Positions 38,052 to 49,138 of a DNA stretch of 64,000 nucleotides are shown piece by piece. The stretch's first letter is position 1; every line of letters begins with the position of its first letter. A program made the translations under genes and the position numbers. The stretch is taken from NCBI GenBank assembly GCA_017883615.1, contig JADGNF010000014.1:62001-126000 (forward strand), read 5' to 3'. Below the pieces are notes generated by a model. It ran no database searches. It had not been told where the DNA came from and saw only the letters and a program-made list of their open reading frames with translations. The DNA is from Candidatus Bathyarchaeota archaeon. Lineage in GTDB: Archaea; Thermoproteota; Bathyarchaeia; Bathyarchaeales; Bathycorpusculaceae.

Positions 38052-38726
38052 ATGGAGAAATCGATTAAAACCCACGTATACCTAGCAATTTGTACTGTTC
38101 TGTTTTTATCGGTGTTTCTCATCGCAGGGTCTTCTTCATCCGTTTCGGCTGGGTCCCAAAGTTTCGGATATGCCCAGATTGGCAACTCATCTAACTCGAC
38201 ATTTGGTGGACTTTTGATTTCTAACTTTACTTCTCCCGGTAATGTTGGGGGCATCACCCGGGTTGAGGTTTACATGGCGACAGGCGGAGGAATAGTTCAA
38301 GCGGTCATTTACTCAGATGCCAACGGCGCGCCGGTGTCCCTGATAGCCAGCAGCGAAACAGTTAATGTTGAAGCAACTAACGGCAGTTGGGTCAGCTTTA
38401 ATGTTAACTACACTGCTCTCCCGAAATTCACTTATTGGATAGGAGTGGTTTTCCAGAACGCAGCGACCTATTATTATAGTTCGGGCATGAACGAGACTGC
38501 AGTCTACTCAGCCTCCAGTTCGGTGGCATCTACGGTTTGTCCATCGGGAACGGCAACGACAGGTAACGTCTTAAGTGTTTATGCTGTTTACACGCCAGCG
38601 TCGAATGGAAATCAAAGCAACCCATGGCTCCTAACAGTGCTAATTTCAATTGCAATTATAGGTATCGTTTTAGCCATTATCTTGGCGGTAGTGTACGCGT
38701 TAAGAAAAAGCCAAAAGGAAAGTTAA
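38052..38726 (+). CDS. Exported protein with a C-terminal membrane anchor
   Basis: A 224-residue protein starting with a signal peptide (basic start, hydrophobic VYLAICTVLFLSVFLIAG, then small residues before GSQSF). A Ser/Thr/Asn-rich beta-type ectodomain with about eight N-x-S/T sequons follows, typical of glycosylated archaeal surface proteins. It ends in one hydrophobic helix (LLTVLISIAIIGIVLAIILAV) and a basic tail. The ATG at 38052 follows GGTGA. Preceded by a TATA-like TTATAATG. No functional family recognised. Confidence 0.8.
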   Translation: MEKSIKTHVYLAICTVLFLSVFLIAGSSSSVSAGSQSFGYAQIGNSSNSTFGGLLISNFTSPGNVGGITRVEVYMATGGGIVQAVIYSDANGAPVSLIASSETVNVEATNGSWVSFNVNYTALPKFTYWIGVVFQNAATYYYSSGMNETAVYSASSSVASTVCPSGTATTGNVLSVYAVYTPASNGNQSNPWLLTVLISIAIIGIVLAIILAVVYALRKSQKES

Positions 38727-38811
38727 TGAAAACTTCATATTCAACGACTAACAGCGGGAAAAGTAACTGTTGAATCCTGTTTTGAGGCTGTTTTGGCGGC
38801 TATTTTCCGAA

Positions 38812-38825
38812 ACGCTTTTATTTTT
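38812..38825 (+). promoter_or_regulatory. Candidate promoter of the shikimate operon
   Basis: ACGCTTTTATTTTT is the only TATA-like block between the previous gene and the leader frame. Its spacing puts the transcript start near 38845, about 20 bases before the leader ATG. Inferred from composition and spacing only. Confidence 0.4.
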
Positions 38826-38863
38826 GGAGGGCTCTGTGGATTAACAGATTCGGGGCTATACCT

Positions 38864-38944
38864 ATGAACGTCGCGCTTCAGGCGAGAAATATTTCTATCC
38901 ACTTCTATAGCTTCGAGTACAGCTTCTATTATTACTTTAACTAA
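38864..38944 (+). CDS. Putative Phe/Tyr-rich leader peptide of the shikimate/tyrosine operon
   Basis: A 26-codon frame from ATG 38864 to TAA 38942. The second half reads FYSFEYSFYYYFN, so 9 of the last 13 codons are Phe (4) or Tyr (5). The genes that follow make chorismate and tyrosine. The stop codon is followed immediately by a perfect 9-bp inverted repeat. This is the architecture of bacterial attenuation leaders such as those of phe operons, where ribosome stalling at scarce aminoacyl-tRNAs changes RNA folding. No strong ribosome site precedes the ATG. Expression and function are inferred; such control is not established in archaea as far as I know. Confidence 0.65.
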   Translation: MNVALQARNISIHFYSFEYSFYYYFN

Positions 38945-38978
38945 GCCCAGAACAGAAAACTTTTGGAAAGTTCTGGGC
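38945..38978 (+). promoter_or_regulatory. Perfect hairpin after the leader peptide, before the aspartate kinase gene
   Basis: GCCCAGAAC (38945-38953) and GTTCTGGGC (38970-38978) are perfectly complementary with a 16-base loop. The left arm begins at the base after the leader stop, so a ribosome finishing the leader would cover it while one stalled earlier would not. No T-run follows, so it is not a classical intrinsic terminator. A possible alternative pairing is GGGCT (38853-38857) with AGCCC (38944-38948). Confidence 0.65.
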
Positions 38979-38994
38979 GCGGGATGAATGACTT

Positions 38995-40239
38995 ATGAAA
39001 AGTGCAAAACCTTGCAAAAAAATTGTGGTCAAATTCGGCGGTTCTAGTCTAGGTGACCCTGAAAGGCTATCCAAAGCCGTAGCTTCGGTGGTTAACGAGG
39101 CAAAAAGAGGAACAAAGATTGCCGTAGTAGTTTCAGCCATGGGCAAAACAACCGATGTCCTTATGAACACCGCAAAAAACTCTTCGAACGGCAAACTTGA
39201 AAAACACGAACTCGACGATATCCTGTCCATGGGTGAACGAACCAGCGTACGCATATTCAGCGCTGCTTTGCGAACAAACGGCGTGGAATCCCGCTACTTC
39301 GATCCCCGAGACGATGACTGGCCAATAATTACAGACGCTTGTTTCTCCAACGCAAACCCTAGCCGAGACCAATGTGAGCAAAGAATCCAAAGACTAGTGT
39401 TGCCCCTTGTTGAGAAAGGCGTGGTTCCCGTCATAGCTGGTTTTGTGGGCAGAACTGTGGAAGGCAAAGTTACTACTTTGGGACGCGGCGGAAGCGATAC
39501 AACAGCTTTCTTATTGGCTGAAGCGCTCAAGGCAGACGAAGTTGTATTAGCCACCGATGCCGATGGCATAATGTCTGGAGACCCCAAAGTCGTCGTTAAC
39601 CCCCGGCGGTTGGCAGAAATCGACGTTAACACGCTTGTTGGACTTGCGGATTCAGGGGCAAAATTCATCCATTCCAAGGCTCTAAAATACAAGCCATTGT
39701 CGGTGGATGTCCGAGTGATCAGTAGCGCGCACGGTGACTTAACCCGTGAAGGAACAGTTATCAAAGGCGCCTTAGCTTCAGAGCTCGACGTTGAACAAGC
39801 GAGTCAGTCGCCTATCGCTGAAATAACAGTTGTTGGACAGAAAATTATCGACAACCCTCAAATAATCGAGGACATGCTTACAAAAGCCAAGAAGCATTCG
39901 CAATTGGTGGGTATGTCCACAAACACGAATTCCGCCATACTTTATGTCTCCGCGGAAAAACCGTTGGACGATTTTTTCAATGATATCCATCAAACCGTTT
40001 TGGCGAATTCTGAAGCCAAGGCAATGGCGGTAAAAAAAGATTTGGTGTTCCTGAAAATTCGCGGTGTTGGCTTAGAGGAAACGCAGGGCATCATCGGCAA
40101 AATTAGCGAAGTTCTCCGTGTAAACGGCATTAACATAGCCGGTATTCTCACTATTGCGTCAAGTATTCTGCTGTTTGTAGATTGGAACCAACGGGAAAAA
40201 GCATTGGAACTAATAAGAAAATCCTTAAGGAGCCAATAA
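38995..40239 (+). CDS. Aspartate kinase (shikimate operon copy)
   Basis: A 414-residue aspartate kinase with VVKFGGSSLGDPERL, GRGGSDTTAFLLAEAL and TDADGIMSGDPK, plus C-terminal ACT repeats (IAEITVVGQKI... and FLKIRGVGLEETQGIIG). It is about 54 residues shorter than the copy in the threonine operon. As head of the shikimate operon it should supply aspartyl phosphate, and thus semialdehyde, to the next enzyme, AroA'. Its ACT domains could bind an aromatic amino acid, but that cannot be read. A four-codon frame (ATG 38984) ends on the start codon through an ATGA overlap. Confidence 0.9.
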   Translation: MKSAKPCKKIVVKFGGSSLGDPERLSKAVASVVNEAKRGTKIAVVVSAMGKTTDVLMNTAKNSSNGKLEKHELDDILSMGERTSVRIFSAALRTNGVESRYFDPRDDDWPIITDACFSNANPSRDQCEQRIQRLVLPLVEKGVVPVIAGFVGRTVEGKVTTLGRGGSDTTAFLLAEALKADEVVLATDADGIMSGDPKVVVNPRRLAEIDVNTLVGLADSGAKFIHSKALKYKPLSVDVRVISSAHGDLTREGTVIKGALASELDVEQASQSPIAEITVVGQKIIDNPQIIEDMLTKAKKHSQLVGMSTNTNSAILYVSAEKPLDDFFNDIHQTVLANSEAKAMAVKKDLVFLKIRGVGLEETQGIIGKISEVLRVNGINIAGILTIASSILLFVDWNQREKALELIRKSLRSQ

Positions 40240-40283: not shown

Positions 40284-41072
40284 ATGGAAGGCAAACAACG
40301 AAGATTAAACCGCATTTTCCGATCTGATAATCGAACTGTAATCGTACCCATAGACCACGGCGTAACCATAGGTCCCTGCAAAGGAATAGAAAACATGCAA
40401 ACCACCATCAACGGTTTAATCAAAGGCGGAGCAGACGCAGTCTTAGTGCATAAAGGCATCGCTAAACACGTCGATGCGGGAAACGCGGGGTTAATCATTA
40501 TGCTTTCTGGAGCTTCAAATCTTAATCCGAATCCCAACAACAAAGTTCAAGTCTGCAGCGTACAGGAAGCCGTTCGGTTAGGTGCAGACGCTGTTTCCGT
40601 TCACGTTAACTTGGGAGCGCAAGAAGAGGACAAGATGCTGATTAAACTGGGCAAAGTGGCTGAAGAATGCGATCTGTTCGGCGTTCCCCTTCTTGCCATG
40701 ATGTACCCTCGAGGACCAAAAATAACTAATGAACACGCATCTGACCTGGTTGCTCACGCAGCTCGATTAGGTGCAGAACTGGGTGCGGATATTATCAAGA
40801 CTAACTACACTGGCGATCTTGAATCCTTTAAAGCGGTTGTAGAATGCTGCCCTGTTCCAGTCGTGATCGCAGGGGGCCCCAAAGCCAAAACCGCAAAAGA
40901 CATCTTGGAAATGACAGTTGACGCCTTAAAGGCGGGTGGCGCTGGACTATCCATAGGGCGTAACGTGTTCCAGCATGAAAACCCCACAGCTATGACCAAA
41001 GCACTTTCAGCAATTGTTCACAAAAGCGCCTCTTTGGAGGCGGCGCAGAAAATTTTGGGTGCAACCAATTGA
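40284..41072 (+). CDS. aroA': 2-amino-3,7-dideoxy-D-threo-hept-6-ulosonate synthase (AroA')
   Basis: A class I aldolase-fold enzyme of 262 residues that condenses aspartate semialdehyde with a C6 sugar phosphate, replacing the DAHP synthase step in archaea. Visible are VPIDHGVTIGP, the phosphate-binding GGPKAKTAKDILEM and GAGLSIGRNVFQHENP, and the active-site Lys in IIKTNYTGD. GGTGG precedes the ATG. It overlaps the next gene, and the two act consecutively. Confidence 0.93.
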   Translation: MEGKQRRLNRIFRSDNRTVIVPIDHGVTIGPCKGIENMQTTINGLIKGGADAVLVHKGIAKHVDAGNAGLIIMLSGASNLNPNPNNKVQVCSVQEAVRLGADAVSVHVNLGAQEEDKMLIKLGKVAEECDLFGVPLLAMMYPRGPKITNEHASDLVAHAARLGAELGADIIKTNYTGDLESFKAVVECCPVPVVIAGGPKAKTAKDILEMTVDALKAGGAGLSIGRNVFQHENPTAMTKALSAIVHKSASLEAAQKILGATN

Positions 41073-42100
41073 AAGAACTTTGGATTCAAATAGCAGAAAA
41101 CTCACCAGAAAGAGAAAAATTGGCCAGGTTAGCCGCTGACCTGAGCGATGCTGTATTAAAAGGAAAAATCGCCCTCACATCAGTGAAACGCGAAATCATC
41201 ATAACTGATAAGTTCGACGAACGTGCCATCAGAGATTTGAAACGTGAAGGAAAAAACGTCGCCCTCAAAGTAACTATTCGTGGAAAAGAAGATGAAAACA
41301 CTGCTGTTAAAGCCGCCGAATCCGGCGTTGATTATGTAATCATCAATTGTCTTGATTGGCGGGTTATTCCATTGGAAAACCTCATCGCGAGGGTATGTGG
41401 CAAAAGTAAACTTATCGCGGAAGTCAAAAGCGCAAAAGACGCTCAACTTGTTCTCGAAGCGTTGGAGTTAGGCACAGACGGAGTTCTGTTAACCACGGAT
41501 TCGGCGGCGGAAATTTCCAAAACCGCCGCCGTAGTCAAACGGCAAATTCCAAAAATTCCGTTGGTTCCCGCAAGAATCACTGCAGTTAATCAAATCGGTA
41601 CAGGTGCAAGGGTTTGCGTCGATACCTGTGACCTAATGGAGCCTGGCGAAGGCATTCTGGTGGGCTCTCAAAGCGCGGGGCTATTCCTTGTCGAAGCGGA
41701 GGTTCATGAAAACCCATATGTGGCGGCGCGTCCGTTCAGGGTTAACGCGGGCTCAATCTCTATGTACACACTGGGATCACTGCAGAACACCCGTTACCTC
41801 TCTGAGTTAAAAGCGGGCGAAGAAGTCCTCATACTAACCCGGGAAGGCAAAGTCCGCAAAGCTAACGTGGGCAGAAGCAAAACCGAGTTCCGCCCCCTCA
41901 TCCTTATCGAAGCCGAAGTAGAGGGTAAAAAAATAAAAACCGTCCTCCAAAACGCCGAAACCATTCGCTTAGTCACCCCAAAAGGATCCACACCCGTGAC
42001 CGAACTAAAACCGGGCGACGAAGTGCTGGTTCACGTTGCGGCGAAAGGCGGCAGACATTTCGGCGTTTCCGTGCCAGAAGAAAAGGTGATTGAACGTTGA
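41069..42100 (+). CDS. aroB': 3-dehydroquinate synthase II (AroB')
   Basis: A 343-residue enzyme that oxidatively deaminates and cyclises the AroA' product to 3-dehydroquinate. Conserved segments include GTGARVCVDTCDLMEPGEG, LVGSQSAGLFLVEAEV, and VNAGSISMYTL. It starts at a TTG overlapping the AroA' stop and ends in a TTGA overlap with aroD, indicating tight coupling. Confidence 0.93.
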   Translation: MKELWIQIAENSPEREKLARLAADLSDAVLKGKIALTSVKREIIITDKFDERAIRDLKREGKNVALKVTIRGKEDENTAVKAAESGVDYVIINCLDWRVIPLENLIARVCGKSKLIAEVKSAKDAQLVLEALELGTDGVLLTTDSAAEISKTAAVVKRQIPKIPLVPARITAVNQIGTGARVCVDTCDLMEPGEGILVGSQSAGLFLVEAEVHENPYVAARPFRVNAGSISMYTLGSLQNTRYLSELKAGEEVLILTREGKVRKANVGRSKTEFRPLILIEAEVEGKKIKTVLQNAETIRLVTPKGSTPVTELKPGDEVLVHVAAKGGRHFGVSVPEEKVIER

Positions 42101-42759
42101 CCCCAAAAATCTGTGTTTCAATTCTTCCGTATAACTTGACCGACGCCCTCAAAATGTTAGTGAAGGCAGAACTCTTAGGTGCAAATTTCATTGAGGTTCG
42201 TCTGGATGAACTCGACATGGACTGCGACCTCAATGTTTTGTTAGCGAACCGAAAAGTACCCCTTATCGCCACGGATAAGGCAGTGCGGGAATCCATAGAA
42301 CATCGGTTTCTGGCACTTAACGCGGCGAAAAGCGGCTTTCCATATGTCGACCTCGACTTGGCAACACCAAGACTAAGCGAACTTGTTAGAGAAGTTAAGG
42401 TATCAGGTGCCAAATGTGTAATCAGCTTCCATAACAACAACGGTACTCCCACCCTCGTCGAACTTCATGAAACTCTCCAAAAACAAATCCAAGCCGGAGC
42501 AGACGTTTGCAAACTCGTCGCAACCCCTGCTCAGATGCAAGATAACCTGACGCTTCTGCAGTTTACTTCGGAAGCTTCTGCGAAGGTCAAGGTGGTCTGT
42601 TTTGGTATGGGTGACCTTGGCAGAACTTCTCGGTTGCTGTCGCCGGTTTTCGGTGGCTTCTTCACTTTTGCGGCGCTTGATGTTGGCAGCGAGACGGCTC
42701 CGGGGCAGATGACTCTTCCAGATATGCGTTTGGCGTACGAGTTACTGAGGCTCCAATAA
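42097..42759 (+). CDS. aroD: 3-dehydroquinate dehydratase, type I
   Basis: A 220-residue class I aldolase-type dehydratase making 3-dehydroshikimate. EVRLDEL is the early Glu/Arg site, CVISFHN carries the catalytic His region, VCKLVATP holds the Schiff-base Lys, and VVCFGMGDLGRTSRLL with a late APGQ completes the family pattern. It starts at a TTG in a TTGA overlap. Followed by aroE after three bases. Confidence 0.92.
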   Translation: MTPKICVSILPYNLTDALKMLVKAELLGANFIEVRLDELDMDCDLNVLLANRKVPLIATDKAVRESIEHRFLALNAAKSGFPYVDLDLATPRLSELVREVKVSGAKCVISFHNNNGTPTLVELHETLQKQIQAGADVCKLVATPAQMQDNLTLLQFTSEASAKVKVVCFGMGDLGRTSRLLSPVFGGFFTFAALDVGSETAPGQMTLPDMRLAYELLRLQ

Positions 42760-42762
42760 GAC

Positions 42763-43623
42763 ATGAACGTATCAGGGAAAACGGCTGTGTACGGCGTGAT
42801 AGGCGACCCTATAGCACACTCCCTGAGTCCCACAATGCAGAATGCGGCTTTTCACGAGCTGAAGTTGGACAACGTTTTCTTGGCTTTCAAAGTCCCAACA
42901 ACCGGCGTTGAGAACGCCCTACGTGGCATGCGCGGTCTCAGCATCCAAGGCTTAAACGTAACCATGCCCAACAAAGCCGCAGTAATTCCATTTCTGGACG
43001 AAGTTGACGAAACAGCCAAATTCCTTGGCTCAGTCAACACGATCCTAAACGAAAACGGCAACCTCCGCGGCTTCAGCACCGACGGCGCAGGGGCCCACCA
43101 CGCTCTCGAAGAAAACGACGTCGACCTAAAAGGGAAAAAGCTGGTTTTGCTCGGCGCAGGAGGCGCAGCCAAAGCCATAGTGTTCATCCTCGCAAAAGAA
43201 GTCAACGAATTGGTTCTTCTCAACAGGACAGCCGGAAAAACCGACGCTTTAGCTGAATCCATAAACCTGAAATTCCACAAAAAAGTCACAGTCAAAACTC
43301 TTTCATCCAGCACGGTTCAAGAAAGCCTGCAGGATGCCGACATCCTCATCAACGCCACCAACGTTGGCATGAACCCCCACTCTAACGAAAGCCTCGTCAA
43401 ACCCGCCTCGATAAAACCAAGTCTCGTCGTTATGGACATAGTTTACAACCCGAGGGAAACAAAACTAGCAAAAGACGCGAAAGATGCTGGCGCCAAAGTT
43501 GTCGACGGTTTAGAAATGCTCATTTACCAAGGCGCGGCGTCGTTTGAAATCTGGACTGGCAAAGCGGCACCCGTAGAAGTTATGAGGCAGGCAGTACTAA
43601 AACAATTAGAATGTGGCAGGTGA
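42763..43623 (+). CDS. aroE: Shikimate dehydrogenase
   Basis: Reduces 3-dehydroshikimate to shikimate with NADPH; 286 residues. The substrate site is GDPIAHSLSPTMQNAAF, the catalytic Lys lies in GLNVTMPNKAAV, the nucleotide site is LVLLGAGGAAKAI, and the Asn/Arg segment LLNRTAGK follows. The C-terminal YQGAASFEIWTG is typical. Ends just before the shikimate kinase ribosome site. Confidence 0.94.
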   Translation: MNVSGKTAVYGVIGDPIAHSLSPTMQNAAFHELKLDNVFLAFKVPTTGVENALRGMRGLSIQGLNVTMPNKAAVIPFLDEVDETAKFLGSVNTILNENGNLRGFSTDGAGAHHALEENDVDLKGKKLVLLGAGGAAKAIVFILAKEVNELVLLNRTAGKTDALAESINLKFHKKVTVKTLSSSTVQESLQDADILINATNVGMNPHSNESLVKPASIKPSLVVMDIVYNPRETKLAKDAKDAGAKVVDGLEMLIYQGAASFEIWTGKAAPVEVMRQAVLKQLECGR

Positions 43624-43627
43624 AAGC

Positions 43628-44503
43628 GTGACTCAAGGATCAGCAACCGCGGTAGCCTACGGGGCAGCTACAATCGTAAACGCGATGGCTACCGGTCAGG
43701 GTGCGGCGTTCGGCGTGGATCTGTGGACGAAGGCAGAAGTCAAACTCACGAGCGACCCCAAAGTCATAATTGGCGAAATCCAATCTGACCCCACCGAGAA
43801 CACTGCACTGATTGAGGGAGCGGTAGCGCGTGTATTGGAAACCTTCAAAGTGGAAAAACGATTCGGCGCTAAAGTAAAAACCGACTCAAATATCCCAATC
43901 GCACGCGGACTGAAAAGCAGCAGCGTCGCCGCAAACGCAGTCGCATTGGCTACTATTGCCGCTCTTGGAAAATCCCTTGACGATTTAGCGGTTATCAACT
44001 TAGGCGTGGACGCCGCTTTTGACGCGAAAGTCACAGTGACGGGCGCGTTTGACGATGCATGCGCCAGTTACTTCGGGGGAGTCGTAGTAACCGATAACAC
44101 TAAACGAGCCCTCCTTACACGAGCGTCACTTCCTGAAGGCTTGTCGGTTCTGTTTCATGTTCCCCAAAAAAAGGCATATTCAGCCAAATCCAACGTGAAT
44201 CGTCTAAAAACTATTGCTCCGCTAGTCAAAATCGCATATCGGGAAGCAGAAAAAGCCAACTTTTGGGAGGCTCTCACGCTCAATGGAATAATTTATTCCT
44301 CAGTACTCGGTTTTAATGCTTCGATCGCGTTGGATGCTTTGCAGTCGGGGGCAGTTACTGCTGGATTGTGCGGTAAGGGACCTGCAGTGACCGCAGTGGT
44401 TCCAGATGATCGACTTGACGCGGTGAAGGTTACCCTCCAAAAGTACGAAGGCGAAATAATCCAAGCCAAGTTTAACCAACAAAAAGCAAGTGTAGTGAAA
44501 TAA
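43628..44503 (+). CDS. aroK: Shikimate kinase, archaeal GHMP type
   Basis: A 291-residue GHMP-superfamily kinase, not related to bacterial AroK. The ATP loop is PIARGLKSSSVAANAVALA, preceded by GQGAAFGVDL, with DDACASYFGGV and GLCGKGPAVTAVV further on. I take the GTG at 43628, with AGGTG five bases upstream; a GTG at 43613 would overlap aroE. The next gene starts two bases after its stop. Confidence 0.92.
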   Translation: MTQGSATAVAYGAATIVNAMATGQGAAFGVDLWTKAEVKLTSDPKVIIGEIQSDPTENTALIEGAVARVLETFKVEKRFGAKVKTDSNIPIARGLKSSSVAANAVALATIAALGKSLDDLAVINLGVDAAFDAKVTVTGAFDDACASYFGGVVVTDNTKRALLTRASLPEGLSVLFHVPQKKAYSAKSNVNRLKTIAPLVKIAYREAEKANFWEALTLNGIIYSSVLGFNASIALDALQSGAVTAGLCGKGPAVTAVVPDDRLDAVKVTLQKYEGEIIQAKFNQQKASVVK

Positions 44504-44504
44504 A

Positions 44505-45809
44505 ATGGCAGACGTAAGAATTCGGAAAACAGAAAACCTGAAGGGGCAAGTTTGTGCTCCTCCGTCAAAACCTTACACTCAAAGGATGACCATAGCAGCG
44601 GCGTTGTCAAACGGATCCTCAAAGTTGTCTAACCCGCTTCTTTCGGGAGACACCGAAGCAACTCTTCGCGCGGTCGAGGCGTTAGGTGCCAAAGTCGAGG
44701 AGACCGGCGACTGCTGGACTATTGAAGGGGCTGCCCCAGTTAAAGCTGCCAAAAAGCCCATTGACTGTGGTGAATCTGGTGCCACTTTACGTTTCATGAT
44801 TCCGGTTGCAGCCCTAGCGGTCAAGCCTTCCGTTTTTGTTCTCGGCGAAGGCTTAGCAAAACGACCCGTAAAACCCCTGCTAGACAGTCTCAAACAAATT
44901 GGCGCTCAAGCCACAGTTAAAACGGTCCGTGGCAAGACCTCCGTTCGCGTCGAAGGTGGCGGTATACAGGGAGGAAAAACAACTATGCCTGGCGATGTCA
45001 GCAGTCAATTCGTCTCGGGTCTCATGTTCGCCTGCCCCCTCGCAAAAGCCGACACAAACCTCACCCTAACCTCGCTCCTCGAATCTAAGAGCTATGTTCT
45101 GATGACCGAAAATGTCCTAAGCAAACACGGTATCAGAGTAGACATATCTGAGGATTTCAACAAAATTAAAATCCCCTCAAAACAAACTTACCAGCCAGTC
45201 GACAGCAAGGTTCCCGGAGACTTCTCTTCCGCCTCGTTCCTCCTCGCAGCCTCTGCCATTACCAATTCGAAAGTAACCTTGAAGAATCTAGATTACGGCA
45301 GCATTCAAGGCGACAAAATAATCATGCGCATCCTTCAGCAGATGGGTGTGAACGGCAAAGTGTGTGTGGATCAAATTGAAATCGATGGCAGCGGCGAATT
45401 ACTGAATGCTGCGGATATCGATGCGAGAGATATCCCTGACCTAGTTCCCGTCTGCGCTGCATTAGCTTGTTACGCGAAAGGTACTACCAAGATCCACGAC
45501 GCCGAGCGCCTCAAACTCAAAGAATCTGACAGGTTGGAATCGTTGTTTTTGGAGCTGCGCAAGATGGGCGCGGACATAACCGCAGATGAAAGCAGCTTAA
45601 CTATAAACGGACCCTGCAGCCTACACGGAGCAACCATCGATTCTCATAACGATCACCGAATCGCCATGGCATGCTCTGTTGCGGCGCTACGTGCGGAAGG
45701 TGAAACCATTATTCAGGGCGCAGAATGCGTTAGAAAGTCTTATCCGCAGTTCTTCTCTGATTTACATGCGTTGGGAGTCGAGGTAGTTGGCTGGGAATTC
45801 GATAGGTAA
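44505..45809 (+). CDS. aroA: 5-enolpyruvylshikimate-3-phosphate synthase
   Basis: A 434-residue two-domain enzyme adding enolpyruvate to shikimate 3-phosphate. It shows CGESGATLRFMIPVAAL, PGDVSSQFVSGLMFA, KVPGDFSSASFLLAASA and the C-terminal LKESDRLESL and SHNDHRIAMACSVAAL. Length and motif order are normal. Its 3' end overlaps aroC by 23 bases. Confidence 0.94.
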   Translation: MADVRIRKTENLKGQVCAPPSKPYTQRMTIAAALSNGSSKLSNPLLSGDTEATLRAVEALGAKVEETGDCWTIEGAAPVKAAKKPIDCGESGATLRFMIPVAALAVKPSVFVLGEGLAKRPVKPLLDSLKQIGAQATVKTVRGKTSVRVEGGGIQGGKTTMPGDVSSQFVSGLMFACPLAKADTNLTLTSLLESKSYVLMTENVLSKHGIRVDISEDFNKIKIPSKQTYQPVDSKVPGDFSSASFLLAASAITNSKVTLKNLDYGSIQGDKIIMRILQQMGVNGKVCVDQIEIDGSGELLNAADIDARDIPDLVPVCAALACYAKGTTKIHDAERLKLKESDRLESLFLELRKMGADITADESSLTINGPCSLHGATIDSHNDHRIAMACSVAALRAEGETIIQGAECVRKSYPQFFSDLHALGVEVVGWEFDR

Positions 45810-46896
45810 AGAGTTCGTGTTTACTTCGTTTGGGGAAAGTCATGGAAAACTCGTTGGTGCAATCGTTGACGGTTGTCCAGCCGGGTTGCCGTTCTCTGAG
45901 GTTGATGTTCAGGCGGATTTGGATCGGCGGATTCCGCTACAAAAGCCTGAACTTGTCTCAGGTAGGGTTGAAAAAGACTTTGCCCAAATCCAGGCAGGGG
46001 TCTTCGACGGGTTCACGTCGGGCGCTCCAATCTGCATGACTGTAGAGAATAAGGAGACCAATAGTAGCGACTATGAAGCAATCAGGGACCTGCCACGTCC
46101 AGCACATGCCGACTACACCTCACGTGTCAAATATGGTGGCTTTAACGACCCACGCGGAGGCGGACGCTTCTCGGGAAGAATTACAGTTGCAACAATTATG
46201 GCAGGTGCATTGGCTAAGAAGCTGCTAAGCCAATTTGACGTGGACGTTATGGCGTACACGCGATCAATAGGCAAAATAAGAACAGAAAAACAACTTGGCT
46301 TCGACCAAATCCGCAATAGTCGATACGAATCTGCCGTTCGGTGCCCCGACATAGCTTGCGCAGAGAAGATGGAAGATGACATATTAGAAGCGCGCAAGAA
46401 AGGTGAGAGTTTAGGCGGAACAGTTGAATGTATTGTCCTTAATGTTCCCGCTGGAATCGGCGAACCGTTGTTTGATTCTTTAGACGGGGACTTGGCTAAA
46501 GCGCTTTTCACGGTTCCTGCAGTAAAAGGAATTGAGTTTGGCGGCGGCTTCAGCTTAGCCGAAATGCAGGGCTCAGAAGCAAACGACGCTTTCCAAATAC
46601 AAAAAGGCAAAGTCACCACCGCCACGAACCTCTCAGGCGGCATCTTAGGCGGCATATCATCAGGCATGCCAATCATAATCCGCGTAGCTATAAAACCCAC
46701 GCCGTCCATCGCGAAGGAGCAGCACACGGTGAATTTGTCTAAACTTGAGAACGCCAAAATCAAGGTTAGCGGTAGACACGACCCTTGTGTGGTGCCTAAA
46801 GCCGTTCCTGCAGTGGAAGCAGCTGTTGCCGTAACTTTAGCCGATCATATGATTAGGGCAGGTTTCATATCGAAAATCATCAAGAGGAAAGAATAA
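45787..46896 (+). CDS. aroC: Chorismate synthase
   Basis: An FMN-dependent enzyme making chorismate; 369 residues. FTSFGESHGKLVGAIVDGCPAG is the family start signature, followed by RPAHADYTSRVKYG, RGGGRFSGRITVATIMAGALA, and the late GRHDPCVVPKAVPAVEA. A TTG at 45787 gives the usual N-terminus (MAGNSIGKEF). GAGGT lies just upstream inside aroA. Confidence 0.94.
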   Translation: MAGNSIGKEFVFTSFGESHGKLVGAIVDGCPAGLPFSEVDVQADLDRRIPLQKPELVSGRVEKDFAQIQAGVFDGFTSGAPICMTVENKETNSSDYEAIRDLPRPAHADYTSRVKYGGFNDPRGGGRFSGRITVATIMAGALAKKLLSQFDVDVMAYTRSIGKIRTEKQLGFDQIRNSRYESAVRCPDIACAEKMEDDILEARKKGESLGGTVECIVLNVPAGIGEPLFDSLDGDLAKALFTVPAVKGIEFGGGFSLAEMQGSEANDAFQIQKGKVTTATNLSGGILGGISSGMPIIIRVAIKPTPSIAKEQHTVNLSKLENAKIKVSGRHDPCVVPKAVPAVEAAVAVTLADHMIRAGFISKIIKRKE

Positions 46897-47156
46897 TGGT
46901 TAACCTCAAAGAACTCCGCAGAGAAATCGACGAAGTTGACGAGCAAATTATCCGTTTCTTAGCTGACCGAGTAAAAGTGTGTCAAACAATAGGTGCCGCC
47001 AAAAAGGCACAAGGACTGCCTGTGAAAGACGTGGTACGGGAAAGAGACGTTTACCAGCTTGTCCGCAAGCAGGCCACAAATTTAGGGTTGGATCCCGTTC
47101 AGGTTGAGGCTGTTTACCGCGAAATAGTTAATATGTGCAGTTCCGTTCAAGAGTAG
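46896..47156 (+). CDS. aroQ: Chorismate mutase, AroQ type
   Basis: An 86-residue helical enzyme turning chorismate into prephenate. It has LRREIDEVDEQIIRFLADRV, then the catalytic helix with AAKKAQGLPVKDVVRERDV. It is a free-standing domain rather than fused to a dehydratase or dehydrogenase. Its ATG overlaps the aroC stop by one base. Confidence 0.92.
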   Translation: MVNLKELRREIDEVDEQIIRFLADRVKVCQTIGAAKKAQGLPVKDVVRERDVYQLVRKQATNLGLDPVQVEAVYREIVNMCSSVQE

Positions 47157-47189
47157 AAAAACAGACTCTTCACGGAGAGTTAACCTAGT

Positions 47190-48269
47190 ATGCTGTATGA
47201 GATAAACGAGAAAGCCCTGAAACTTGAAGCTGAAGGCAAAAAAATCATCCGTTTAAACCTTGGCGACCCAGACTTGGAAACTCCGCCTGAAATCGTGGAA
47301 GCCGCATACCAAGCTATGAAAGCTGGGAAAACCAAGTATTCTTCTGCATACGGAGAAAACAAACTTCGGGTCAAATTGGCTGAAGTCCACGACGTCAAAC
47401 CTGAAAACGTGGTGATTACTCCTGGATCCAAATGGGGCGTCTTTGCCACTATGTATTTGATGTTAAAGGGCGGCGGCAATGTTATCATCCCAACTCCGTA
47501 CTGGACAGCGTATGAGTTAATCGCCAAAAGCATAGGTGCCAAAGTCAAACTTCTAAGAACCGAGTTAGAAAATGACTGGAAAATAGACCCGGCGGAATTG
47601 GAAGCCCTCATAGACAAAGAAACTAAGATGATTATTCTAAACAACCCAAACAATCCAACAAGCAAAGTCATTGACGACAAAACCCTTGATGGGATAGTTG
47701 AGATAGCTAACAAGAAAGGCATCACAATACTTTCCGACGAAGTTTACGGCACCATAGCCTTCACAAAAACCAAAAGCATACTCGATTACAACGGCGGCTG
47801 CAAACATATCTTGAGCAACGGTTTCTCCAAAACTTTCACCATGACGGGTTGGCGCATCGGCTACATAATCGCCGACAAACTCCTTGTCGATAACATAACA
47901 AAACTTAACCAGATAACGATAAACAACGTGCCCGTCTTTATTCAGGAAGCTGCGTTGAAAGGACTGGAACTGCGCAAACAAATCGCCAACGCCATAAAGA
48001 AAGAATACAAAGAACGCGCGGATATGGCATGCAAAATCCTCTCTAAAGATGGCTTATCCTTCACCAAACCCGAAGCCCCCTTCTACGTGTTCCCCAAGCA
48101 TCCTGGCTTAGATTCAGAAAAATTCACTCTGGACCTACTGGACAAAGGTGTAGCTGTAGCGCCAGGCACTTCATTTGGAGATTATCGTGAACACTTCCGC
48201 ATTTCCCTGACTGCGCCCAGACCCAAAATTAAGACTTCGCTAAACATAATTTGTGAGGCACTGAAATGA
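47190..48269 (+). CDS. Class I aminotransferase, probably aromatic amino acid specific
   Basis: A 359-residue PLP aminotransferase of the aspartate/aromatic family, with LNLGDPDLETP, NNPNNPTSKV, and the PLP lysine in SNGFSKTFTMTGWRIGY. It lies between chorismate mutase and prephenate dehydrogenase, so it probably makes the last transamination to tyrosine and phenylalanine. It starts a few residues later than typical relatives, but an in-frame stop excludes a longer form. GGAGAG precedes the ATG by about 11 bases. Confidence 0.85.
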   Translation: MLYEINEKALKLEAEGKKIIRLNLGDPDLETPPEIVEAAYQAMKAGKTKYSSAYGENKLRVKLAEVHDVKPENVVITPGSKWGVFATMYLMLKGGGNVIIPTPYWTAYELIAKSIGAKVKLLRTELENDWKIDPAELEALIDKETKMIILNNPNNPTSKVIDDKTLDGIVEIANKKGITILSDEVYGTIAFTKTKSILDYNGGCKHILSNGFSKTFTMTGWRIGYIIADKLLVDNITKLNQITINNVPVFIQEAALKGLELRKQIANAIKKEYKERADMACKILSKDGLSFTKPEAPFYVFPKHPGLDSEKFTLDLLDKGVAVAPGTSFGDYREHFRISLTAPRPKIKTSLNIICEALK

Positions 48270-49138
48270 AAACCGCGATTTTAGGCGCGGGAAAAATGGG
48301 TATTTGGTTTGCGAAATTCTGCAAAGAAAACGGCGACAAAGTTATCTTAGCTGACCGAAAACAAGAGAAGTTGATAAAACTGGGCTCGGAACTGGCCGTG
48401 GAAACCGCTGGCTTGATCGAAGCCGTCAAAGAAGCCGACAGAATCATGATTTGTGTTTCCATAAGCAGTTTCGAAGAGGTGGTCAAAAAGATCGCTCCCG
48501 CCATCAAAGATGGGCAAGTAGTCATGGATATTTGCTCCATCAAAGAGTTCCCAGTTAAAGTCATGCACGAAAACATAAAACACGGCTTGATTCTGGGCAC
48601 GCATCCTCTTTTTGGTCCCGGAAGCAAAGACGTTAAACATAAAACCTACATTTTGACGCCCACAAACGAGGCTGAGGCCAAATACGCGGATAGTTTCAAG
48701 AGGTGGCTCGACAAAATGGACGCCCACGTTTTCATTATGGCACCCAAGAAACATGACGAGCTTATGTCTGTAGTTTTGGGAATGCCCCATTTTCTAGGCT
48801 TAGTCGCTTGCGAAACCTTGCTCGAACAGAAAAACTTTCCAGAAACTAAGGAAGTCGCCGGCACAACTTACAGAATGCTATTCACTTTGGCAGAAGCGAC
48901 AGCACTAGAGACACCTGATCTTTTCGCTAACTTGCAGATGAACCTCCCTGAGATGGGAAAAATCGAGGATCAATTCATCCGGAAAGCCGAAGAATGGCTC
49001 AACTTAATCAAGAATAAGAATCCGCAAGCTATCATGGATAAAATGGAACAGTTGAAAGCGAAGCTTCTAAAAATCGATCCCGACTTCGCCAAATCTTACG
49101 AAGTCATGTATAAGATGCTGGAATCTACTGAAAAGTGA
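48266..49138 (+). CDS. tyrA: Prephenate dehydrogenase
   Basis: An NAD(P)-dependent enzyme converting prephenate to 4-hydroxyphenylpyruvate, the tyrosine precursor. The nucleotide motif is AILGAGKMGIWFAKF, with DICSIKEFPV, LGTHPLFGPGSK (the catalytic His segment) and VLGMPHFLGLVACETLL. It is 290 residues and overlaps the aminotransferase by ATGA. Last gene of the operon; no prephenate dehydratase is present here. Confidence 0.9.
   Translation: MKTAILGAGKMGIWFAKFCKENGDKVILADRKQEKLIKLGSELAVETAGLIEAVKEADRIMICVSISSFEEVVKKIAPAIKDGQVVMDICSIKEFPVKVMHENIKHGLILGTHPLFGPGSKDVKHKTYILTPTNEAEAKYADSFKRWLDKMDAHVFIMAPKKHDELMSVVLGMPHFLGLVACETLLEQKNFPETKEVAGTTYRMLFTLAEATALETPDLFANLQMNLPEMGKIEDQFIRKAEEWLNLIKNKNPQAIMDKMEQLKAKLLKIDPDFAKSYEVMYKMLESTEK

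Follow-up and report, generated by a model that had tools for sequence, protein, structure and literature searches.

Ribosome-mediated attenuation is a familiar mode of control in the phe, trp and his operons of bacteria, and the E. coli pheL type is the system with which the element described here is compared. In archaea, translation is coupled to transcription, yet the RNA polymerase is eukaryote-like and termination is of the FttA type. According to the portion of Blombach et al. (2021) cited here, archaea have no known case of attenuation or antitermination (PMC8448881), and among the papers listed from the open-licence PMC literature none describes archaeal leader-peptide attenuation in its title or abstract. 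In Haloferax volcanii, long 5'-UTRs carry uORFs of 23 aa before a Trp-tRNA ligase gene and of 26 aa before pheS (PMC4983044). Like these uORFs, the element reported here is a short archaeal 5'-UTR ORF before an aromatic-amino-acid-linked gene; it differs from them in lineage and genes, and the cited portion of that report gives no peptide sequence, aromatic content or mechanism (PMC4983044).

This study concerns a leader upstream of a shikimate/tyrosine operon in the window, namely the whole analyzed stretch of 64,000 nucleotides of Candidatus Bathyarchaeota DNA. Like pheL-type attenuators, it has a short leader ORF rich in codons for the pathway product between the predicted promoter and the first biosynthetic gene, and its helices lie within reach of the leader ribosome, one over the leader start region and one after the stop. 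Unlike them, it belongs to an archaeal host, the main clade has neither a conserved antiterminator helix nor a U-run terminator, and the hairpin abuts the stop, so that a ribosome at the stop would melt it. As these two defining structural features of the bacterial leader-peptide attenuators were not found, we do not file the element in that family. Of the attenuator-like reading in the preliminary description, the aromatic leader frame and the post-stop hairpin before the operon are borne out, being conserved in codons as well as in structure; a bacterial-type terminator/antiterminator switch is not evident from the data. Judging from sequence comparison, we consider it likely that the element is a ribosome-mediated attenuator that would sense charged tRNA-Phe and tRNA-Tyr via its leader peptide.

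The leader peptide ORF occupies positions 38864..38944 of the forward strand, on which all features given below also lie. It consists of 26 codons with a Phe/Tyr run near the end and the stop TAA at 38942-38944, and is translated as MNVALQARNISIHFYSFEYSFYYYFN-stop. Re-reading of the frame bore out the earlier count of 9 Phe or Tyr residues among its 13 final codons. A perfect 9-bp hairpin starting at the base right after the stop, with the kinase ATG 16 bases 3' of it, had likewise been described, and both agree with the sequence: the 5' arm GCCCAGAAC (38945-38953, segment 3) pairs with the 3' arm GTTCTGGGC (38970-38978, segment 4) of what is here called P2, and the ATG lies at 38995. Two competing pairings named in the preliminary description (GGGCT at 38853 with AGCCC at 38944, and CGCGC at 38872 with GCGCG at 38977) and a four-codon frame at 38984 are present but unconserved among relatives, and were dropped as regulatory parts on this ground. 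The conserved partner helix, P1, differs from both of these pairings and links the 5' end with the first codons of the aromatic run: its 5' strand (38848..38860, segment 1), close to where the transcript is predicted to begin, forms 13 bp with 38906..38918 (segment 2), which comprises the codons Y-S-F-E and the first base of the next Y.

The first gene of the operon encodes a protein of the aspartate kinase family (38995..40239; AA_kinase, PF00696, 4.3e-49), and genes 2-11 follow at 40284..49138, nine of these ten with Pfam assignments. Overall, 10 of the 11 frames between 38995 and 49138 were scanned, and all had Pfam matches: AA_kinase, DeoC-type aldolase, DHQS II, DHquinase I, shikimate DH, GHMP kinase, EPSP synthase, chorismate mutase, aminotransferase and prephenate dehydrogenase. 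The frame at 45787-46896, outside the Pfam scan, is presumably chorismate synthase, judging from its N-terminus. Phe and Tyr had been named as end products of the operon; Tyr fits its gene content, and Phe is a putative end product, no prephenate dehydratase (PF00800) having been detected in the window's genome (G000), an assembly of 1.73 Mb that is 95% complete. The leader contains Phe besides Tyr codons even so, and the gene may be missing from the assembly.

The distribution of the leader was followed by searching for the kinase protein in 90 genomes of the family, 162 of the order and 256 of the class, and the upstream DNA was taken from the order members with a usable contig. A kinase orthologue at E <= 1e-90 was present in 76 genomes of the order, and G125 was excluded because its contig begins inside the kinase gene. 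The aromatic leader frame was kept in 75/75 testable loci (73 complete and 2 cut by contig ends), which belong to families f1 (52), f4 (14), f5 (6) and f3 (3). Outside the order, 5 of the 20 examined loci had a leader (two in f12 and one each in f13, f14 and f19), and none was found in the other 15 (f10, f15, f18 and f21), where the best Phe/Tyr count was 1 to 4. Eight further f10 genomes as well as G207, G208 and G222 are kinase-positive and lie outside these 20 loci. Beyond L001-L054, the leader was defined as the frame richest in aromatic residues before the kinase; examples are SFDYYFYYYYFS in L015, FYSFGYFFYR in L104, FFTYFSGYYTTF in L110, FFGSFGYFGYRG in L111 and NPYYYYYYYCFF in L128. 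The sequence is wholly different between families and the same anatomy recurs, in the order promoter, 5' strand, short ORF with a terminal Phe/Tyr run, stop, abutting hairpin, Shine-Dalgarno (SD) and kinase.

The named loci with a kinase relative number 41 and are assigned to Candidatus Bathyarchaeota (24, including the closest relative, 85% identical), Candidatus Bathycorpusculum (8), Nitrososphaerota (5), Crenarchaeota (2), the miscellaneous Crenarchaeota group (1) and a chance bacterial match (1). A Bathyarchaeota-type host may be deduced from these names. Among 40 named relatives, the aldolase-type gene of the pathway follows the kinase in 38 and DHQS II does so in 37; the exceptions are L094, which ends soon after the kinase, L061, which is cut before DHQS, and L086, which has neither. 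This last locus, in G053, retains leader and kinase with no aldolase or DHQS within 3 kb downstream, and no DHQS was found in its 75%-complete genome. The kinase frame of L086 matches just to residue 354-355 of 414. Conversely, G057, a member of the window's genus, has kept the aldolase and DHQS genes and lost both kinase and leader, and genus g4 (G005-G008) has DHQS without this kinase, with no leader evident in the stretches from G005, G007 (746 bases) and G008. These counter-cases indicate that the presence of the leader is tied to that of the kinase, almost always the first gene of the aromatic operon. The G057 locus (L197), an aromatic cluster without kinase or leader that still has the promoter-like CCGAAATGCTTT upstream, amounts to a natural deletion.

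To score the aromatic run, Phe and Tyr were counted over the final 13 codons of every short ORF and the highest count was used, and the controls were scored by the same best-frame rule. This score was at least 5 in 77/77 complete leader regions (of 79 loci entered, the 2 contig-cut ones score 0) and 10 in L201, which was added later. It did not exceed 4 in any of the 52 same-family control regions, 24 upstream of trpE and 28 upstream of hisG, with controls L143 and L180 sitting at a wrong offset owing to contig ends. Scores of at least 5 occurred in 4.4% of dinucleotide shuffles and in 22/2550 tiles of the window, where the 4 tiles scoring 9 are consistent with the leader.

Conservation at the codon level was seen in the 45-sequence alignment of the main clade, as the preliminary description had expected of a translated leader. 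Within the body of the ORF, every gap has a length divisible by three, and single-base gaps are confined to positions 5' of the ATG, the last part of the run or the junction of stop and hairpin. Nearest pairs differ by single bases at 35 places in aromatic codons, of which 22 remain Phe/Tyr (13 synonymous and 9 F<->Y) and 13 lead to other residues; 2 of the 9 possible single-base changes would keep Phe/Tyr. A test of frame by anchor distance was weak, since 28/45 rows could be measured, of which 21 shared one phase and 7 another, and 17 rows had no anchor. The 7 off-phase rows look like a subclade in which the hairpin starts one base inside the stop.

The C-terminus of the peptide is conserved within the main clade, as would be expected if the ORF encoded a small functional peptide acting in trans, with the hairpins as mere mRNA stabilisers. 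We regard this explanation as very unlikely, because the N-terminal half and the length of the peptide are free, and across families the aromatic content is kept but the order of residues is not. Moreover, the Ser-Phe codons in the P1 3' strand are nearly invariant at the nucleotide level (AGC in 42/45 and TTC in 44/45), as P1 requires, and the covariance-model matches presented below are in cis to this kinase.

Both helices were recovered de novo by RNAalifold from the 45 main-clade sequences, which yielded the P1 core and P2 and no other helix, and compensatory changes of the kind anticipated for the hairpin were seen in P1 as well as in P2. For P1 and P2 together, 90.1% of cells were paired versus at most 46.1% in slid controls, the covariation score was 0.129 versus at most 0.044, and none of the five measures was reached by any of 500 shuffles; the both-sided pair count was without discrimination, being 7 for P1 and P2 and also 7 in two slid versions. 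P1 formed more pairs than in synonymously recoded leaders in 60/75 loci, a set without L096, L119, L099 and L115 (f1 43/51, f4 11/12, f5 3/5 and f3 1/2), and was not above the recodes in the single f13, f14 and f19 loci. In L053, L054 and L118, P1 is rebuilt with an unrelated helix of 11-15 bp. The post-stop region, which contains P2, folds with z < -2 in 71/79 loci, and the first stem begins -3 to +4 nt from the leader stop in 76/79; this stem is the first in the best fold and may differ from the conserved hairpin, as it does in L052.

A core promoter (BRE and TATA) is predicted at 38807..38825 (CCGAAACGCTTTTATTTTT), and the motif GAAANNCTTWTAT or a near form of it lies upstream in 45/45 main-clade loci. 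The distance from the TATA centre to the P1 5' strand is 27-30 nt in 45/45, and that from TATA to the leader ATG is variable (37-47 nt in 41 of the 44 measured). As the 5' strand is fixed relative to TATA while the ATG floats, P1 probably involves the very first bases of the transcript together with the ribosome entry site of the leader. With the frame kept throughout the order, its gaps in threes and a predicted promoter upstream, the element withstands, so far as sequences can tell, the refuting conditions named in the preliminary description. In most relatives the P1 5' strand is GGTTCGAAGC, which is semi-palindromic and may also act as DNA near the start site; we also take it to resemble the tRNA T-loop consensus.

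The fixed distance to TATA, and the perfect inverted repeats formed by the P2 arms in the window, could also be read as DNA operators for a repressor, with the ORF being incidental. In that case, it would be difficult to account for a P2 loop whose length varies between relatives, for sequence that changes wholly between families and for pairs that covary as RNA; the conservation of aromatic codons would also be left unexplained. We consider such operators very unlikely.

A covariance model built on the main clade matched 51 of the 256 class genomes (46 in f1, four in f4 and one in f12), and in 50 of these 51 the match was single and lay directly 5' of this kinase. The held-out f1 genome G015 gave a match of 2.1e-30 beside its truncated kinase, and the four f4 genomes and the one f12 genome, all held out, gave weak matches of 6.3e-5 to 0.0048 in the right place. 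G100 had a second weak match away from the kinase (C159:3554-3649, E 0.0064). With its stricter filters, the model missed 29 of the 80 genomes in which inspection and frame scanning had revealed a leader (6 f1, 10 f4, 6 f5, 3 f3 and one each of f12, f13, f14 and f19), which indicates that it is specific to the main clade. When Rfam 15 was run over window positions 38700-39100, it returned 5 matches at E up to 10, none of them near the gathering score.

The arrangement of leader and helices suggests how a ribosome could act as a switch. By geometry, a ribosome paused on the run would cover the P1 3' strand, so that P1 would open and P2 stay formed, and a ribosome at the stop would cover the 5' arm of P2, so that P2 would melt and P1 could close behind it. 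Masking was performed with an assumed footprint of 15 nt upstream and 14 nt downstream of the A-site codon on 74 loci, a set without L096 and L119 (leader start off the contig) and L099, L115 and L136 (kinase start doubtful or masked). With the ribosome stalled on the run, P1 was open and P2 formed; with the ribosome at the stop, P1 was largely closed and P2 open, though this loss of P2 mostly follows from the choice of footprint, which spans its 5' arm. The geometry itself is the conserved feature.

These folds also bear on classic enterobacterial four-segment attenuation, in which P2 would be the terminator and a freed segment 1 or 2 would pair with 3 or 4 as antiterminator. Individual loci are suggestive of such a design: a U5 run follows P2 in f12 (L128 and L129) and in some f5 loci (L110 and L113), and in f4 a 5' CUGGGCC is complementary to the GGCCCAG of P2 (L099). 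The expected number of pairs that the 5' part forms with the post-stop region also rose from 3.4 without a ribosome to 5.3 when stalled, but was higher still, at 8.6, with the ribosome at the stop. In addition, stalling left P2 unweakened (13.1 expected pairs versus 12.7 without a ribosome), and no mutually exclusive terminator/antiterminator helices were conserved in the 45 main-clade sequences, in which P1 and P2 do not overlap. The earlier observation that a T-run is absent 3' of the hairpin was confirmed in the window, and the main clade has no U-run after P2 either, so that the GC hairpin plus U-run of an intrinsic terminator is not found. In the gap between stop and kinase, T5 runs showed a modest excess, given here without a significance figure (37/74 versus 26.8 expected), and T6 runs showed none (9 versus 14.3 expected, 74 loci). 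To our knowledge, archaeal termination is not hairpin-dependent, which also counts against this explanation, and we consider it unlikely.

A purely translational form of attenuation deserves more weight. It would have the run and the hairpin close the SD and start of the kinase in the default fold, and a stalled ribosome would free the SD. ErmC-type translational attenuators are comparable in that a stalled leader ribosome alters the RNA just upstream of the SD of the next gene. The hairpin is indeed wedged between the leader stop and the SD: the probable kinase SD of the window, GGGATG, lies at 38981..38986, an SD-like motif precedes the chosen kinase start in 68/79 loci, the leader stop is 44-74 nt from the kinase start in 77/79 (the chosen starts of L099 and L136 are doubtful), and the hairpin is 14-22 nt from it in the 17 loci printed. 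In the main clade, however, the SD lies outside P2, which argues against this form. The SD/AUG was more accessible when stalled than without a ribosome in 52/74 loci (0.468 versus 0.387), as such control predicts, but synonymously recoded leaders gave the same change (0.081 versus 0.084, p = 1). Compared with the ribosome at the stop, accessibility was higher when stalled in 33/74 loci, and in f1 it was slightly lower when stalled (higher in 19/51, p = 0.012, a value that, like all p-values here, is optimistic since the sequences are related), again contrary to this form.

The leader end of L052 is complementary to the kinase start, and in f1 the pairing of the run with the SD exceeded that of swapped partners in 37/49 loci, but this excess was not seen in f4 (7/13), f5 (2/5), f3 (0/3) and f12 (0/2), in a swap set without L099, L115, L136, L051 and L052. 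Sequestration of the SD by the aromatic run was rejected as a candidate, because the pairing is no stronger than in synonymous recodes and no selection was detected. Unlike in the ermC type, SD sequestration is thus neither consistently predicted nor selected here, and purely translational attenuation is, in our estimation, a possibility to be taken seriously but a rather doubtful one.

Returning to the ribosome-mediated attenuator that would sense charged tRNA, we propose the following mechanism. P1 would restrict translation of the leader to the pioneer ribosome behind RNA polymerase. When Phe/Tyr is scarce, this ribosome would lag and P2 would form behind the polymerase, with read-through into the operon. 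When Phe/Tyr is plentiful, the ribosome would reach the stop, hold P2 open and then release, leaving naked RNA behind the polymerase; such RNA would be subject to factor-dependent termination of the FttA type or to poor initiation at the kinase, and expression would be lowered. Several results count against this mechanism: after release the fold is identical to the default one although a signal would have to persist, no alternative helix is conserved and stalling leaves P2 as strong as before, the T5 excess is modest, the SD/AUG is not more accessible when stalled than with the ribosome at the stop, P1 does not surpass recodes in some families, and G057 and G053 are counter-cases. In archaea, termination depends on factors and responds to coupled translation. 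This property, and the limitation of leader translation to the pioneer ribosome that P1 would impose, would favour a co-transcriptional decision. The portion of the FttA literature cited here states polarity by this factor as likely (PMC12548453). On the level of output, we lean slightly toward transcription, and translation falls just short of an even chance.

Conserved leaders of the same design were found neither before hisG nor before trpE, where scattered single matches for His leaders (28 loci, L180 at a wrong offset) and Trp leaders (27 loci, with L143, L156, L161 and L163 at a wrong offset) were obtained. Inspection of the trpE set (L141-L167 minus L143 and L156; the window genome's own copy is L158, G000:C31) revealed another feature: in 25 f1 genomes, translation of trpE seems to depend on a +1 frameshift at a Trp codon. 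The short frame that starts at the ATG reads M-[GR]-x-x-[LIV]-W; an SD-like motif precedes this ATG in 21/25, and trpE lies in the +1 frame relative to it in 25/25. All 25 starts match ATGRGR-N(5-7)-TTTGG, and in 15/25 there is no ATG, GTG or TTG in the trpE frame before the conserved domain. The site resembles the shift site of E. coli prfB, and no paper on programmed frameshifting at archaeal trpE was among those listed from the open-licence PMC literature.

A related observation was made at the f10/f15 kinase loci L121-L125, L131-L133, L135 and L137, which are 10 of the 15 loci without an aromatic leader. In these, the kinase frame continues 5' into a conserved stretch, within which lies an overlapping mini-frame, e.g., MGDHLFGDGVY or MGGHLYW, with Phe/Tyr codons after NTT. 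The mini-frames could be a similar Phe/Tyr-dependent frameshift; all 10 loci have a GTG start in the kinase frame, so a frameshift is not forced.

Taken together, the data point to attenuation of a kind previously unknown in archaea. Our fullest interpretation, advanced tentatively and at somewhat less than even probability, is that this would be the first archaeal leader-peptide attenuator, in which the position of the ribosome decides whether P2 forms behind the polymerase, and P2 would be an ON structure that protects the growing transcript from termination of the FttA type and would not itself act as a terminator; ribosome-based sensing of aromatic amino acids in Bathyarchaeia, including the apparent reading of Trp scarcity by the trpE frameshift, may then be a general theme. 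With coupling that involves a eukaryote-like polymerase and FttA-type termination, the question is whether the position of a ribosome can control an archaeal operon. The element makes this question directly testable, since natural variants are available by the dozen, the cis module is short, the signal is defined, and the arms of the conserved structures can be mutated and restored. If the mechanism holds as we infer it, a regulatory logic known from bacteria would have been kept across a whole archaeal order.
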